Part shown: positions 6,424-12,206 of the stretch, in pieces
Layout: each line of letters begins with the position of its first letter
Numbering within the stretch: position 1 is the first letter of the stretch
Source of the DNA: Sphingomonas cavernae
GTDB lineage: Bacteria > Pseudomonadota > Alphaproteobacteria > Sphingomonadales > Sphingomonadaceae
Assembly (NCBI RefSeq): GCF_003590775.1
Contig: NZ_QYUM01000002.1
Location: 1-64,000, forward strand
Reading direction: 5' to 3'
Length of the DNA stretch: 64,000 bases
Notes under the pieces: generated by a model
The model's input: only the letters and a program-made list of their open reading frames with translations
Told to the model about the DNA's origin: nothing
Database searches by the model: none
Program-made: the position numbers and the translations under genes

Positions 6424-6515
6424 CACCCTGAACTTGTTTCAGGGTCCATGAACACGGCGCGTGCAGAATCTGCGCCGCCGGTGTTCATGGATGCTGAATC
6501 AAGTTCAGCATGACG
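6421..6515. repeat. Dispersed REP-like element, copy 1 (between ilvC and bioF)
   Basis: The left part (6421-6449) contains CCCTGAACTTGTTTCAGGGT, itself a hairpin. The right part (6487-6515) contains ATGCTGAATCAAGTTCAGCAT, also a hairpin, and the two parts are imperfect inverted copies of each other. A second copy sits at 52148-52236, where the left 29 bases are identical and the centre differs. Two copies with conserved ends and unrelated middles mark a non-coding dispersed repeat. Confidence 0.85.
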
Positions 6516-6529
6516 CTAAGGGGCGGGCG

Positions 6530-7681
6530 ATGACCTCCGAGACTCGCCTGTTTGAAACCCACGCCCGCCAACTCGATGCGCTCGCCGCCGACGATCGGCT
6601 TCGCGTGCTCCGACCGCGTCAGGGACTCGATTTCGTCTCGAACGATTATCTGGCTCTCGCCAACTCGCCCGAGTTGCGCGCAGCCCTGTTCGACGGCATT
6701 GAGCGTGGCCTGCCCGCGGGATCGGGCGGTTCCCGCCTGCTGCGCGGCAATCACGAGGAGCATGAGGCGCTCGAAAGCGAGGCTGCGCGCCATTATGGCA
6801 GCGAGGCCGCGCTGTTCTTTGCGACGGGCTTCACTGCCAATGCCGCACTCTTTGCGACGCTGCCCCAGCGCGGTGACCTCGTCGTCCATGACGAACTCAT
6901 TCATGCGAGCGCACATGACGGGATGAAGCTCGGCCGTGCAGAGCGTGTCGCCGTCGCGCACAACAATGCCGACGCCTTCGAAACCGCGATCCGGAACTGG
7001 CGCGCGCGCGGCGGCCTCGGTCGCCCGTGGATCGCGGTCGAAAGCCTCTATTCGATGGACGGCGATCGCGCGCCCCTTGCGGCGCTGGCCGAAGTGGCCG
7101 AGCGAAACGAGGCGGTGCTCATCGTGGACGAAGCGCACGCAACGGGCGTTTTCGGCCCCGAAGGCCGCGGCCTTTCGGCATCGCTCGCACGGCAAGAAAA
7201 CGTCATCGCACTGCACACCTGCGGCAAAGCGCTGGGTTGCGAGGGCGCGCTGCTCTGTGCGCCGCGCGTGCTTGTCGACTTCCTCGTCAACCGCGCCCGC
7301 CCCTTCATCTTCTCGACCGCATCCTCACCCTTCGTCGCGCATATGGTTCGCCGCGCGATCGAGGTGGTCGCCGCGCAGCCCCAGCGTCGTGCCGCACTCG
7401 ATGCGCTCGTCGAGCATGCGGGCGCCCGATTGCACGACCGGCTCGGCGTCGCGCCCACGGGTTCGCAGATCATCCCCGTAATTATCGGGGACAATGGCCG
7501 CACGATGGCGATCGCATCGGAGCTTCAGTCAGCAGGGTTCGACGTCCGCGGCATCCGTCCGCCGACCGTGCCCGCGGGCACCGCGCGACTGCGCGTATCA
7601 ATCACGCTCAACGTCACCGCTGCCGATATCGACGCGCTCGTCGACGCGATGGAGGGGGCGATCGCGCGCATTCCGGCATGA
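6530..7681 (+). CDS. bioF: 8-amino-7-oxononanoate synthase
   Basis: PLP enzyme of the alpha-oxoamine synthase family condensing pimeloyl-ACP/CoA with alanine in biotin synthesis. The 383 residues carry the family signatures DFVSNDYLAL, SGGSRLLRGN, DELIHASAHDG, DEAHATGVFGPEGRG and the PLP-binding Lys233 in HTCGKALGCEGA. The ATG at 6530 is preceded by GGGGCGGGCG. The frame stays open upstream to 6461, but that part is the REP-like element. The stop overlaps bioD as ATGA. The closely related 2-amino-3-ketobutyrate ligase is excluded by the bioD-bioA context. Confidence 0.93.
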   Translation: MTSETRLFETHARQLDALAADDRLRVLRPRQGLDFVSNDYLALANSPELRAALFDGIERGLPAGSGGSRLLRGNHEEHEALESEAARHYGSEAALFFATGFTANAALFATLPQRGDLVVHDELIHASAHDGMKLGRAERVAVAHNNADAFETAIRNWRARGGLGRPWIAVESLYSMDGDRAPLAALAEVAERNEAVLIVDEAHATGVFGPEGRGLSASLARQENVIALHTCGKALGCEGALLCAPRVLVDFLVNRARPFIFSTASSPFVAHMVRRAIEVVAAQPQRRAALDALVEHAGARLHDRLGVAPTGSQIIPVIIGDNGRTMAIASELQSAGFDVRGIRPPTVPAGTARLRVSITLNVTAADIDALVDAMEGAIARIPA

Positions 7682-8295
7682 GCCAGCGCTTCGTCATCAC
7701 CGCCACCGACACCGATGTCGGCAAGACCATCTTCTCCGCCGCGCTCGTCCAGGCGCTTGGCGCAAGCTACTGGAAGCCCATTCAGGCGGGCCTCGAAGGC
7801 GGAACCGACAGCGAGACCGTGGCGCGGCTGACGGGAGTCACGCCGATCCCCGAAGCATGGCGCCTCGCAACACCCGCCTCCCCGCATCTCGCCGCCGAAA
7901 TCGACGGTGTGACGATCGACCCTGTCGCGCTTGCACCACCCGATTGCGACGGCCCGCTCATCATCGAAGCGGCCGGCGGCGCGCTCGTTCCTGTCACGCG
8001 CACCACGCTGTTCGCCGATATCTTCGCGCGCTGGCAGTTGCCCGTGATCGTCTGCGCGCGTACCGCGCTCGGCACGATCAACCACAGCCTGATGACGATC
8101 GAAGCGTTGCGCAATCGTAACGTTCCAATTCACGGCCTGGCCTTCATCGGCGACGCCATGCCCGACAGCGAGGCGATCATCCCTGAAATCACGGGAATCC
8201 GGCGCCTGGGCCGCCTCCCCCACCTCGATCCACTGACCCCGAAAACGCTCGCCGCCGCCTTCGCCGCGCATTTCAAGACGGGCGACTTCACATGA
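7678..8295 (+). CDS. bioD: Dethiobiotin synthetase
   Basis: ATP-dependent carboxylation of 7,8-diaminopelargonic acid to dethiobiotin. The 205-residue protein starts with the extended P-loop TATDTDVGKTIFSAALVQAL and continues with the substrate loop YWKPIQAGLEGGTDSE and IIEAAGGALVPV. It overlaps bioF at its start and bioA at its end by ATGA, so the three genes are translationally coupled. No bioB is present in the window, so the final sulfur-insertion step must be encoded elsewhere. Confidence 0.95.
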   Translation: MSQRFVITATDTDVGKTIFSAALVQALGASYWKPIQAGLEGGTDSETVARLTGVTPIPEAWRLATPASPHLAAEIDGVTIDPVALAPPDCDGPLIIEAAGGALVPVTRTTLFADIFARWQLPVIVCARTALGTINHSLMTIEALRNRNVPIHGLAFIGDAMPDSEAIIPEITGIRRLGRLPHLDPLTPKTLAAAFAAHFKTGDFT

Positions 8296-9539
8296 GCCTT
8301 TCCCCCGTCTGGCATCCCTTCACCCAGCACGGTCTCGGCGAACCCATTCCGCTGATCGAGCGTGCTCAAGGCGCAGCAATCTACGACGCTGACGGCCGGC
8401 GCTGGATTGACGCGATCTCGTCCTGGTGGGTGGTGACACACGGCCATTGCCATCCGCGCATCATGGCCGCGATCCGGGAACAGACCGAACGGCTCGACCA
8501 GCTCATCTTCGCGGGCTGGACGCACGAACCCGCCGAAAGCCTTGCGCGTGAACTCGTCGACATCACCCCCGAACCGCTCACGCGCGTGTTCTTTTCGGAC
8601 AGCGGCTCGACCAGCGTCGAGGTCGCGCTCAAGATGGCGCTCGGCTATTGGTCCAATATAGGGCGCCCGCGCCACCGCATTCTCGTGATGGAGCACAGCT
8701 ATCATGGCGACACGATCGGCGCGATGTCGGTCGGCGCGCGCGGCGTGTTCAATAAGCCTTATGAGCCGCTGCTGTTCGACGTCGGCGCCATTCCCTTCCC
8801 CGCCGAGGGCCGCGAACAGCAAACGCTCGACGCCCTCGAAGCCGCCTGCCGCGAAAAGCCCGCCGCCTTCATCGTCGAGCCGCTGATCCTCGGCGCGGGC
8901 GGCATGCTCATCTATTCGGCTGAGACGCTCGCCGAAATGCGCGGCATTTGCGCGCGTCACGGCGTGCTCTTCATCGCCGACGAGGTCATGACGGGCTGGG
9001 GCCGCACCGGCACGCGCTTTGCCTGCGATCAGGCGGGCATCGCACCCGATATCATGTGTCTCTCCAAAGGGCTGACCGGCGGCGCGATTCCGCTGGCCGT
9101 CACGCTTGCGACTGACGCAATCTTCGAAGCGCATTATTCCACCGATCGCGCGAAGACGTTCTATCATTCGAGCAGCTACACCGCGAACCCGATCGCCTGC
9201 GCCGCGGCCAACGCCAATCTTGCCATCTGGCGCGAGGAGCCCGTTGCTGAACGCATCGCCAGCCTGGCCACAATGCAGGAGCAACAGCTCGCACGCCTTG
9301 CAGCCCATCCTCGCCTCACCAGCCAGCGCCAGCTTGGCACGATCGCCGCGGTCGATATTGTTGCCGATGATGCGGGCTATCTCTCCGACCTTGCGCCGCG
9401 TCTCATCGCTTTCTTCCGCGAATGCGGCCTGCTGCTGCGACCGCTCGGCAACACGCTCTACGTGATGCCGCCCTATTGCATCGACGAGGCCGACATGACG
9501 CTGATCTATGATGGAATTCTGGACGCGATCGAGGTTTGA
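8292..9539 (+). CDS. bioA: Adenosylmethionine-8-amino-7-oxononanoate aminotransferase
   Basis: Class III PLP aminotransferase making diaminopelargonic acid from KAPA with S-adenosylmethionine as amino donor. In 415 residues it shows WHPFTQHG at the start (typical of BioA), DAISSWWVVTHGHCHP, the SDSGSTSVEVALKMA glycine-rich loop, DEVMTGWGRTG and PLP Lys259 in LSKGLTGG. It is the last gene of the bioF-bioD-bioA cluster. Order and overlaps indicate one transcript. Confidence 0.96.
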   Translation: MSLSPVWHPFTQHGLGEPIPLIERAQGAAIYDADGRRWIDAISSWWVVTHGHCHPRIMAAIREQTERLDQLIFAGWTHEPAESLARELVDITPEPLTRVFFSDSGSTSVEVALKMALGYWSNIGRPRHRILVMEHSYHGDTIGAMSVGARGVFNKPYEPLLFDVGAIPFPAEGREQQTLDALEAACREKPAAFIVEPLILGAGGMLIYSAETLAEMRGICARHGVLFIADEVMTGWGRTGTRFACDQAGIAPDIMCLSKGLTGGAIPLAVTLATDAIFEAHYSTDRAKTFYHSSSYTANPIACAAANANLAIWREEPVAERIASLATMQEQQLARLAAHPRLTSQRQLGTIAAVDIVADDAGYLSDLAPRLIAFFRECGLLLRPLGNTLYVMPPYCIDEADMTLIYDGILDAIEV

Positions 9540-9593: not shown

Positions 9594-10235
9594 ATGCGTC
9601 GCAAGCTCATCGCCCTCGGAGTCGCAGTCGTCGCCGTCGTCGCCCTCCCGGTCATCGCCCAGCAATCATCGCAACTCCCCGGCGCCAAGAATCCTGCCGC
9701 GGTCACCGGGGGCACCTACACGGTAGACGCACCGCACACGCTGGTCCGCTGGGAAGTCGATCATCTCGGCTTCACGCCCTATTTCGGTATTTTCGGTGAC
9801 GTGACAGGGACGCTCGTGCTCGACCCCAAAAACCCTTCCGCAGCCAAGGTCGACGTCACCATTCCCGTCGCCAAGGTGACCACCGCCAGCGCCGGGCTCA
9901 CCAAGCATCTGCTCAAGCCCGCCGAGGGCGGAAAGCCGGCCGACTTCTTCGGCGCCAATCCCGCGGATGCCAGGTTCGTGTCGACCGGCGTCACTGTCGA
10001 CGGCGACGATGCCAAGATCACGGGCAACCTGACGCTCAACGGCGTCACCAAGCCCGTCACGCTCGACGCTGAATTCTACGGCGCGGGCAAGGCCCCCGCG
10101 CAGATGGGCGGCAAGGAAAATGTCGGATTCGAGGCCGAAACCACGATCAAGCGCAGCGATTTCGGCATCGGCTACGGCATCCCCATGGTCTCGGACCAGG
10201 TGAAGCTCGACATCGCCGTCGCCTTTCAGAAATAA
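9594..10235 (+). CDS. YceI-family periplasmic protein
   Basis: A 213-residue protein with a clear signal peptide (residues 1-22, cleavage after VIA) and one YceI domain: YTVDAPHTLVRWEVDHLGFTPYFGIFGDVTG at its start and TLNGVTKPVTLDAEFYG in the middle. The family forms lipocalin-like barrels that bind isoprenoid or other amphiphilic lipids; the ligand here is unknown. It starts 54 bases after bioA behind a good ribosome site (AGGAGA) and ends at a strong terminator. Confidence 0.93.
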   Translation: MRRKLIALGVAVVAVVALPVIAQQSSQLPGAKNPAAVTGGTYTVDAPHTLVRWEVDHLGFTPYFGIFGDVTGTLVLDPKNPSAAKVDVTIPVAKVTTASAGLTKHLLKPAEGGKPADFFGANPADARFVSTGVTVDGDDAKITGNLTLNGVTKPVTLDAEFYGAGKAPAQMGGKENVGFEAETTIKRSDFGIGYGIPMVSDQVKLDIAVAFQK

Positions 10236-10244
10236 TCGTGCGTC

Positions 10245-10278
10245 AAAAGCCCCTGTTGCGAAAGCGATAGGGGTTTTT
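10245..10278 (+). terminator. Rho-independent terminator after the YceI gene
   Basis: AAAAGCCCCT and AGGGGTTTTT form a G/C-rich hairpin with flanking A and T tracts just after the YceI stop. It separates this gene from the leuA leader that follows at once. Confidence 0.85.
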
Positions 10279-10304
10279 GCTGGACAGGCACGGCGTTTCC
10301 CGCC

Positions 10305-10364
10305 ATGGCCTTAACCATGAACGCGCACCGCGCCCTTCTCCTTCTTCGACTTACGCGCCCTTAG
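10305..10364 (+). CDS. leuL: leuA leader peptide (leucine-rich attenuator ORF)
   Basis: The ORF encodes MALTMNAHRALLLLRLTRP (19 residues; an inner ATG at 10317 gives 15). Six residues are leucine, four in a row, using TTA, CTT, CTC, CTT, CTT and CTT, mostly not the CTG/CTC codons usual in this high-GC DNA. It lies between the YceI terminator and leuA and ends inside one arm of a perfect 11-bp stem. A leucine-codon run just before the first gene of leucine synthesis is the classic sign of ribosome-mediated attenuation. No clear ribosome site or promoter is visible. The function is inferred. Confidence 0.7.
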   Translation: MALTMNAHRALLLLRLTRP

Positions 10365-10415
10365 GCGCGACGCTTCCGCTTGGCTCTTTTCAGAGCCGCG
10401 GCACCGCCTAAGGGC
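10357..10415 (+). promoter_or_regulatory. leuA attenuator stem-loop
   Basis: GCCCTTAGGCG (10357-10367), covering the last codons and stop of the leader, is perfectly complementary to CGCCTAAGGGC (10405-10415). Nested inside is a 6-bp hairpin GGCTCT/AGAGCC (10382-10397, loop TTTC). A ribosome that reaches the leader stop would open the outer stem, and one stalled at the Leu codons would leave it differently exposed. No T-run follows, so the control may act through Rho or on translation rather than through an intrinsic terminator. Confidence 0.6.
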
Positions 10416-10484
10416 TATAATAAACCAGAGCGAAACGAGCAGCAGGCGCGGACACGTGTCGCTGTGAAGCCGAAGAGAAAACTC

Positions 10485-12206
10485 ATGCTGCGCGATCCGT
10501 CCGTAAAATACCGCCCCTTCCCGCAGGTCGATATAGCCGACCGTGAGTGGCCAAGCCGCACCATCACCAAGGCACCGCGCTGGCTGTCAACCGATATGCG
10601 CGACGGAAACCAGGCGCTGATCGATCCGATGGACAGCGAGAAGAAGACGCGCTTCTTCGAGCTGCTGTGCAAAGTCGGGGTCAAGGAGATCGAGGTCGGC
10701 TTCCCGTCGGCGGGGGCGACCGAGTTCGACTTCATCGCGGGCCTCGTCCAGCAGGGCCGCGTTCCCGACGACGTGATCATCCAGGTGCTCACCCAATCGC
10801 GTCAGGATCTGATCGAAAAGAGCTTCGAAAGCCTGAAGGGCGCGAAACAGGCGATCGTCCATCTCTACAACGCCGTCTCGCCCGCATGGCGACGGATCGT
10901 GTTCAACATGGAGCGCCCCGAGATCAAGGCGATCGCGGTGGCCGGCGCCAAGGTGCTGCGCGACGAAGCCGCGAAGCAGCCCGACACGCAATGGCATTTC
11001 GAATACAGCCCAGAAACCTTTTCGACCGCCGAACTCGATTTCTCGGTCGAGGTCTGCGAGGCGGTGATGGACATACTCCAGCCGACGCCCGAGCGTCCGC
11101 TGATCCTCAACCTGCCCGCGACGGTCGAGGCGGCGACGCCCAATATCTACGCCGACCAGATCGAATGGTTCTGCCGCAATATCCGCAATCGCTCATCGGT
11201 CGTCATTTCGCTCCACCCGCATAACGACCGCGGCACGGGCGTGGCTGCCGCCGAACTGGGCCTGATGGCGGGCGGCGACCGTGTCGAGGGTTGCCTGTTC
11301 GGCAATGGCGAACGCACGGGCAATTGCGATCTCGTGACGGTCGGGCTGAACCTCTACACGCAGGGCGTCGACCCGCGCCTCGACTTCTCGGATATCGACG
11401 AGGTGATCCGCACCGTCGAATATTGCAACAACATCCCCGTCCATCCGCGTCACCCCTATGCGGGCGACCTGGTGTTCACAGCCTTTTCGGGCAGCCATCA
11501 GGACGCGATCAAGAAGGGTTTCGTTGCGCAGGAAGCGCGCAACGACGAATATTGGGAGGTTCCCTATCTGCCGATCGACCCCGCCGACCTGGGCCGCAGC
11601 TACGAGGCGGTGATCCGCGTCAACTCGCAGAGCGGCAAGGGCGGCGTCGCCTGGGTTCTCGAACAGGACAAGGGGCTGAAGCTGCCCAAGCGGATGCAGG
11701 CCGATTTCAGCCGCCACGTTCAGGCGCTGGCCGACGAGACGAGCCGCGAACTCAACGCCGCCGACATCTGGGGCGCCTTCGCCAAGGCCTATGCGCTCGA
11801 CGGCGAGCACCCCTTCGGCCTGATCGATTATCAGGAAACCCACGCTCCCGGCGGGATTGGCGGCGCCAATCGCATGTTCGTGGGCAAGATCCGGCTTGAG
11901 GGCGAGGAACGCTCGATCAGCGGGCGCGGCAACGGCCTGATCTCCTCAGTGCTCGCAGCGTTGCGCGACGAATGCGGCATCGACCTTGAGGTCGCCGACT
12001 ATAGCGAGCACGCCATCGGTCATGGCTCGGACGCGCAGGCTGCTGCCTATGTTGAATGCCGCACGGCTGAAGGAAAGACGGTCTTTGGCGTGGGCGTCGA
12101 TGCTGACGTGGCGACCGCAAGCGTTCGCGCGGTGCTGAGCGCGGCGAACGTGCTAGGCACCGAAGCCGCTTCGGCGAGCGGGGCAAGCGCGGCGTCCGCT
12201 GCATGA
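10485..12206 (+). CDS. leuA: 2-isopropylmalate synthase
   Basis: Condenses 2-oxoisovalerate with acetyl-CoA, the committed step of leucine synthesis. The 573 residues match the longer (LeuA2/actinobacterial-like) form: [17 protein letters not shown] start, catalytic TIM barrel with [50 protein letters not shown], and a C-terminal regulatory domain (about residues 440-560) for leucine feedback. The ATG at 10485 gives the conserved start; the frame is open upstream through the attenuator, which is rejected as coding. The product uses the 2-oxo acid from the ilvBNC pathway in the same window. Confidence 0.95.

Follow-up and report, generated by a model that had tools for sequence, protein, structure and literature searches.

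A conserved leucine-rich leader upstream of leuA in Sphingomonas cavernae as a probable translational attenuator

The leuA gene of Sphingomonas cavernae is preceded by a short leucine-rich reading frame whose RNA is probably a leucine-responsive translational attenuator of leuA. This reading was adopted because the leader ORF is conserved among relatives, because the stem holding its stop codon (P2) covaries, because a long-range pairing between the Leu codons and the leuA Shine-Dalgarno region (P1) appears to have co-evolved, and because the element is linked to two LeuA families. The DNA studied, called the window, was the whole of positions 1 to 64,000 of the forward strand of contig NZ_QYUM01000002.1 (assembly GCF_003590775.1), and the coordinates of the features are collected in Table 1.

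The leader mRNA would begin at or near the ATG at 10317. With leucyl-tRNA in good supply, the ribosome would pass the Leu codons, terminate at the TAG inside P2 and depart, after which P1 would form and the Leu codons of the leader would cover the leuA Shine-Dalgarno region and block translation of leuA, while P2, lying beside P1, would keep the two strands of P1 together. When leucyl-tRNA is scarce, the ribosome would stall on the Leu codons, the last of which is the CTT at 10350-10352, and, given the normal size of a ribosome, would cover the 5' strand of P1 and most of the 5' arm of P2, leaving the leuA ribosome-binding site exposed. We infer, rather than compute, the leaderless start, the stalling of the ribosome and the direction of the response, the last two because leucine leaders elsewhere behave in this way.

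Table 1. Positions of the leuA leader features in the window, and the basis for each.
Feature	Positions	Strand	Basis
Promoter-like -35 hexamer TGGACA	10281..10286	+	TGGACA-like hexamer in 51/77 sequences; end 30 nt before ATG 10317
Leader peptide ORF MNAHRALLLLRLTRP and stop, probably leaderless	10317..10364	+	In frame through CGACTT in 78/81 sequences, window included
Leader segment with predicted pairing to 10486-10494 at the leuA start	10322..10332	+	Single-sequence prediction
Proposed control codons, Leu CTT CTC CTT CTT, then CGA, then CTT	10335..10352	+	Sequence
P1 5' strand, UUCUUCG.A.CUU	10342..10352	+	Minimum-free-energy fold, pair probabilities; permutation tests on relatives
Heptamer CGACTTA (codons CGA CTT A..)	10347..10353	+	78/81 sequences; class sample 51/79 vs 1.1 expected
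P2 5' arm GCCCTTAGGCG, holding the leader stop codon	10357..10367	+	Covariation; fold z -4.15
Inner hairpin GGCTCT..AGAGCC within P2, differing in sequence among relatives	10382..10397	+	Pair probabilities
P2 3' arm CGCCTAAGGGC	10405..10415	+	Covariation
P3 hairpin, between P2 and the Shine-Dalgarno region	10445..10460	+	Predicted in the window sequence only
P1 3' strand, AAG.C.CGAAGAG, containing the presumed Shine-Dalgarno region of leuA	10467..10477	+	Pair probabilities
leuA, 2-isopropylmalate synthase, NCBIfam TIGR00970 type (573 residues)	10485..12206	+	818.8 bits vs cut-off 697.4

The original prediction of a Leu-rich leader ORF with six leucines before leuA was borne out by the sequence: the frame opened by the ATG at 10305 encodes MALTMNAHRALLLLRLTRP followed by a stop, and its six Leu codons are TTA, CTT, CTC, CTT, CTT and CTT. 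The start it had placed at 10305, however, should probably be moved to the ATG at 10317. The end of the TGGACA hexamer lies 30 nt before the ATG at 10317 and only 18 nt before that at 10305. TGGACA-like hexamers, from a list chosen by hand, lay no more than 60 nt away in 51 of 77 sequences, the window included, and were 29 to 33 nt upstream of the leader start in 41 of these 51. Since this spacing fits the ATG at 10317, the first four residues (MALT) are probably not translated, and the ATG at 10305 probably sits in the -10 region; since the hexamer ends 30 nt upstream, the ATG at 10317 would coincide approximately with the transcription start. A generic sigma-70 scan found no promoter-like site in the window's leader by the criteria of that scan. 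CTT accounted for 109 of the 256 leader Leu codons located before CGACTT, versus 16.7% of the Leu codons of 45 window ORFs picked by length, and about 35% of the leader residues before the motif were Leu.

A terminator-like stretch, consisting of an A-run, a CCCCT..AGGGG stem and a T-run, was seen by eye at 10244-10278 and would belong to the upstream gene (ORF 9594-10235), which we take to be YceI-like; its presence suggests that leuA has its own promoter. This stretch was absent from the output of the terminator scan of the window, perhaps because of its long loop. The ORF translations of the window also contained three consecutive ORFs at 6461-9539, which presumably correspond to bioF, bioD and bioA of biotin synthesis.

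Comparison of the window with 80 leuA relatives (the first set, 81 sequences) showed that an ORF running through CGA CTT A was present upstream of leuA in 78 sequences and was missing from L075, L079 and L080. Among these 78, the distance from this CTT to the stop codon was 12 nt (52 sequences), 18 nt (20) or 21 nt (6). Conservation of both the ORF and the stem across relatives had been set as the check on the original prediction; both are kept, the stem with compensatory changes. P2 covariation was counted on 67 sequences (63 distinct), in which 95.2% of the cells were paired. Six of the 11 pairs were changed on both sides, a number reached by 2 of 500 shuffles, and the covariation score was 0.249 versus 0.136 in shuffles, none of which (0/500) scored as high; two of the 11 pairs were invariant and the outermost pair was broken in 17 rows.

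The stem had been described as a perfect 11-bp helix around an inner hairpin, overlapping the leader stop and followed by no T-run, and each of these points agreed with what we found in the window. Its arms are complementary at 11 of 11 positions and separated by 37 bases, the hairpin lies at 10382-10397, the TAG at 10362-10364 falls within the 5' arm, and the 3' arm is followed by TATAATAA and hence by no T-run. The folding energy of the stem-loop was -35.8 kcal/mol (z -4.15), and 0 of 200 shuffles were as good. An uninterrupted helix with 8 or more pairs began no more than 14 nt past CGACTTA in 55/56 first-set representatives, versus 15% in shuffles, and past the leuA-proximal CGACTTA in 30/41 class-set representatives, versus 20% in shuffles. 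The leader stop fell within or at the edge of the stem-loop in 56/56 and 38/41 of these representatives, respectively.

A Leu-rich leader with a stem overlapping its end is what classical attenuation would call for, in which P2, or a competing local hairpin (CGCGCC-CTTA-GGCGCG, 6 bp) that can be drawn at 10354-10369, would be a transcription terminator or antiterminator. However, the terminator scan of the window's leader returned 0 terminator-like sites, and a T-run after P2 was not found at 73 loci, where at most 4 T were present in the following 8 nt. Support for the local hairpin was weak: 81.5% of its cells were paired, 2 of its pairs were changed on both sides, which was matched by 336 of 500 shuffles, and its covariation (0.124, reached by 1/500 shuffles) was exceeded by that of a slid version of itself (0.181). 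It is thus not convincingly supported as a competing structure, and we regard classical attenuation as very unlikely.

What the original prediction described was only half of the RNA, the P1 half being missing from it. The unconstrained fold of the window from the ATG at 10317 holds both P1 and P2. In P1, UUCUUCG at 10342-10348 pairs with CGAAGAG at 10471-10477 and CUU at 10350-10352 pairs with AAG at 10467-10469, so that its base nearest leuA is at position -8, and the presumed Shine-Dalgarno bases 10471-10477 were predicted to be paired with the leader at probabilities of 0.84-0.97. A true pairing had to be separated from a simple meeting of purine-rich and pyrimidine-rich sequences, and for this leaders were paired either with the upstream region of their own leuA or with those of other loci (permutation), and the two were compared. 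The energy of own pairs was -14.68 kcal/mol versus -12.56 +/- 0.38 kcal/mol for permuted pairs in the 56 diverse representatives of the first set, and -15.63 versus -13.88 +/- 0.49 kcal/mol in the 41 representatives of the class set, with 0/10,000 permutations as good in either case; 1/10,000 was as good when all 44 class-set sequences were used. Four control windows of the first set showed no own-pair effect (805, 1022, 1104 and 1895 of 2000), whereas two of the four class-set controls were also low (-60..-33, 5/2000; +28..+55, 78/2000), the former perhaps because of the longer leader ORFs there. When the target was slid along the first set, the signal peaked at -22..-9 of leuA (z -4.7), and the absolute z was at most 1.1 outside about -30..+3.

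Synonymous redraws of the 56 leaders bound less well on average than the leaders themselves (-13.19 versus -14.52, Wilcoxon p 0.004), but only 6/56 leaders were within the best 5% of their own redraws. Minimum-energy folds of whole leaders contained at least 5 pairs between the leader and the Shine-Dalgarno region in 55/77 and 22/44 sequences; among representatives such folds were obtained for 40/56 own pairs versus 478/840 swapped chimeras and for 21/41 versus 250/615, a modest own-partner excess. The best isolated duplex of the window, which ranked at 0.60 among swapped partners, is not the P1 of its full fold. Covariation of P1 could not be counted column by column, because P1 has no fixed register.

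The original prediction had left the switch to act either through Rho or on translation, and of these the translation part gained support, since the predicted pairing of the Leu codons with the Shine-Dalgarno region points to translation rather than to Rho. Under Rho-dependent attenuation, full translation of the leader would leave the RNA between P2 and leuA bare, and Rho would load on it and terminate before or early in leuA, with the stalled ribosome or P2 altering access. This would be in keeping with the lack of an intrinsic terminator noted above and with the composition of the P2-leuA interval, which contained 35% C versus 23% G (72 loci), as Rho loading sites often hold more C than G. 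The interval is short, however (29-88 nt from the end of the P2 model R1 described below), and differs in sequence among relatives, and Rho alone predicts no pairing of the Leu codons with the leuA Shine-Dalgarno region. The support that Rho draws from P1 comes from the leaders located before the TIGR00973-type LeuA (the third set), in which P1 is borderline: own pairing at -32..-3 was equalled by 680/10,000 permutations with 35 representatives and by 469/10,000 with all 46 sequences. We consider it unlikely that Rho is the main switch, while Rho-dependent termination in the spacer could work alongside the translational attenuation that we favour. Low counts were obtained in the third set instead around the start codon, at -6..+7 (1/1000) and 0..+13 (0/1000), and at -54..-41 (4/1000), among eleven windows tried, and the control window -60..-33 was near the line (128/2000). 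P1 was marginal for the six swapped loci from the R1 search (37/720). The site that is occluded may not be the same in every group, or leaders before the TIGR00973-type LeuA may use another mechanism. In L178, the leuA upstream region matches the leader perfectly over 8 bp (GGCCTGCT with AGCAGGCC).

The distribution of the leader was examined with R1, a covariance model of P2, which was searched in 196 genomes of the order (E up to 0.001). R1 matched in 96/196 genomes, each time just upstream of a LeuA gene, which was of the TIGR00970 type, the family of the window, in 89 genomes and of an unrelated LeuA family in 7. The LeuA of the window, used as a query, was found in 90/196 genomes, 89 of which were shared with R1; in all 89 the R1 match ended 29-88 nt upstream of the LeuA start on the same strand, while G378 had LeuA without an R1 match. 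The remaining 7 matches lay directly before genes of 511-535 residues. Against TIGR00973, whose cut-off is 598.7, these genes scored 673-720 bits, whereas their TIGR00970 scores of 133-161 bits fell below the cut-off of 697.4; the two families are both 2-isopropylmalate synthases. TIGR00970 passed its cut-off in 1/14 control genomes, which we guess to be Corynebacterium glutamicum.

As a control, a TIGR00973 search of the same 196 genomes gave 74 positives, 67 of which had no R1 match, and the upstream regions of 60 of these 67 were retrieved. CGACTTA was present in 41/60, versus 0.9 expected from shuffles, and CGACTAA or CGACTGA was present instead in seven more; a stem holding the stop codon was seen by eye in many of them, and the leader stop was no more than 30 nt from the CGA in 46/46 usable regions. 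R1 is thus too narrow to detect these, and the leader accompanies more than one LeuA family. Similar leaders were seen before the non-orthologous TIGR00973 family in L178-L184 and L186-L245. We infer that the leader stayed in place while the LeuA enzyme family changed, the alternative being an independent gain. A sample of the class contained the LeuA of the window (E up to 1e-50) in 84/289 genomes, from which 80 upstream regions were retrieved and 79 were usable. CGACTTA was located no more than 350 nt from leuA in 51/79, versus 1.1 expected from shuffles, and was present at least twice in 23/79, versus 0.01 expected; 72/75 of the motifs in this sample read in frame as CGA CTT within a short ORF.

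Two motifs in tandem before leuA (three in L149) were seen in L109, L112, L113, L115, L119-L123, L126, L127, L129, L132-L134, L137, L140, L144, L146, L149, L154, L160 and L171. By eye, LLRLITPAA (L144) is an example of the upstream leaders and LRLIGGSRA (L113) of the downstream ones, and every leader has a GC-rich hairpin of its own. In the genome of the window, CTNCGACTTA had only four matches versus 40 for the reversed pattern, and inspection by eye retained only the site in the leuA leader; of the three others, one was inside an ORF that is presumably response-regulator-like, one was on the opposite strand of a 346-aa ORF, and one fell in no ORF of at least 120 aa.

The A following CTT was kept in 78/78 sequences, a set picked by the heptamer itself, although the next codon was that of T, I, S or M. 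Pairing of CGACTTA in cis with pieces of TAAGTCG was not supported, as these were not enriched downstream (4-mers or longer in 12/52 versus 18.2 expected), and for the same reason P1 does not account for the conservation of the heptamer. We also considered that CGACTT may have complementarity to 16S rRNA, which is an assumption of ours. The lack of an enriched cis partner, the persistence of the A across varied next codons and the excess of the motif, single or repeated, in the class sample and before the other LeuA family would all suit recognition of CGACUUA by a trans-acting protein or small RNA, or else sequence-specific stalling at CGA-CTT or on the nascent LRL peptide, with leucine codon supply being secondary. 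Such a mechanism is nevertheless improbable in our view, given that nearly all of the class motifs are in frame in a short ORF, that the seven TIGR00973 regions with CGACTAA or CGACTGA lose the heptamer but keep Arg-Leu and a Leu codon, and that the leader residues before the motif are so rich in Leu. A wider proposal, which we also regard as unlikely, is that leucine leaders across the alphaproteobacterial class use CGA-CTT-A as a dedicated sensor, either as codons that are read slowly or as a site recognised by a factor. The element would be modular, outlasting a change of LeuA family, standing in tandem in about three of every ten leuA regions sampled and having a common ancestor with the LEU element of Actinobacteria.

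Among known systems, the enterobacterial leuL (Rfam Leu_leader) is also a leader with Leu codons before leuA, and shares its Leu-codon leader peptide with the sphingomonad leader, but it is a transcription attenuator and the intrinsic terminator belongs to leuL only. More generally, the sphingomonad leader has the peptide rich in codons of its pathway that marks a classical ribosome-mediated attenuator, whereas the intrinsic terminator and T-run of such attenuators were not found. A search of the window against Rfam 15 at the gathering score returned two tRNAs only and no leader family, and a search of six loci returned nothing at E up to 1.

The closest likeness is with the actinobacterial LEU element upstream of leuA, whose run of Leu codons was predicted to form a base stem with the Shine-Dalgarno box (Seliverstov et al. 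2005, PMC1262725). In the available part of that paper, attenuation by leader translation is doubted and a protein ligand is favoured, and a conserved pseudoknot or alternative hairpins are placed between the strands of the base stem (PMC1262725). As far as this part describes it, the LEU element has in common with the sphingomonad leader a Leu-rich ORF before leuA, a base stem to the Shine-Dalgarno region and a role considered in translation initiation. Here the base stem was found by permutation, by the sliding target and in the fold of the window, with borderline support before the TIGR00973-type LeuA. The sphingomonad leader differs from what is described there in its covarying P2 that holds the leader stop, in its highly conserved CGACTTA and in its alphaproteobacterial host. 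A crude pairing test gave no signal for a pseudoknot joining the P2 loop to the spacer (868/5000 permutations as good, 41 loci), and this candidate was rejected. The one actinobacterial leader compared, L086, has a Leu run, MQWRALLLGCRGGV, by eye, no CGACTTA and a fold without the base stem. The working principle of the sphingomonad leader matches that of the LEU element; membership is not claimed, because the pseudoknot was not found and homology was compared with that one actinobacterial leader alone.

Leu-rich leuA leaders with GCR near the end were seen in L084 (Cupriavidus), L086 (Tsukamurella), L089 (Sinorhizobium) and L135 (class sample), which come from Beta- and Alphaproteobacteria and Actinomycetota and all share the 8-mer GGTTGCCG by eye; a common origin with actinobacterial leaders is possible. 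The available part of one report describes leuL1 of Streptomyces lividans as a 15-residue leader, MRFGLLLLSCRGEGL, located before leuA, leaderless and without a typical Rho-independent terminator (PMC8079986). The sphingomonad leader resembles this description in its position, in the lack of a typical terminator and, probably, in its leaderless start, and differs from it in its peptide end (LRLTRP instead of SCRGEGL). The leuA leader of C. glutamicum has four Leu codons, according to the accessible portion of another report (PMC4046766). In Alphaproteobacteria, the excerpts at hand describe the Sinorhizobium trpL as leaderless, as attenuating transcription and as the source of a small RNA as well (PMC10117765) and the Caulobacter ilvBN leader as an attenuator with a Rho-independent terminator (PMC4117421); leuA is not mentioned in the latter excerpt. 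Both are, like the sphingomonad leader, leader ORFs before amino-acid biosynthesis genes, but on these descriptions trpL senses tryptophan and ilvBN senses isoleucine and valine, whereas the sphingomonad leader would sense leucine. An alphaproteobacterial leuA leader of this kind was not recognised in the literature searched, although an earlier description is possible.

If the translational attenuator is real, leucine would control the translation of leuA in many Alphaproteobacteria, and the codons that sense leucine would also lock the ribosome-binding site, which would make the choice of leader codons a measurable part of the switch. The element stands upstream of two LeuA families that are unrelated to each other, which suggests that a leader can persist after the gene under its control has been replaced. 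The sphingomonad leader would also provide a tractable system, with a highly conserved heptamer, in which to test the idea put forward in 2005 for the actinobacterial leuA.
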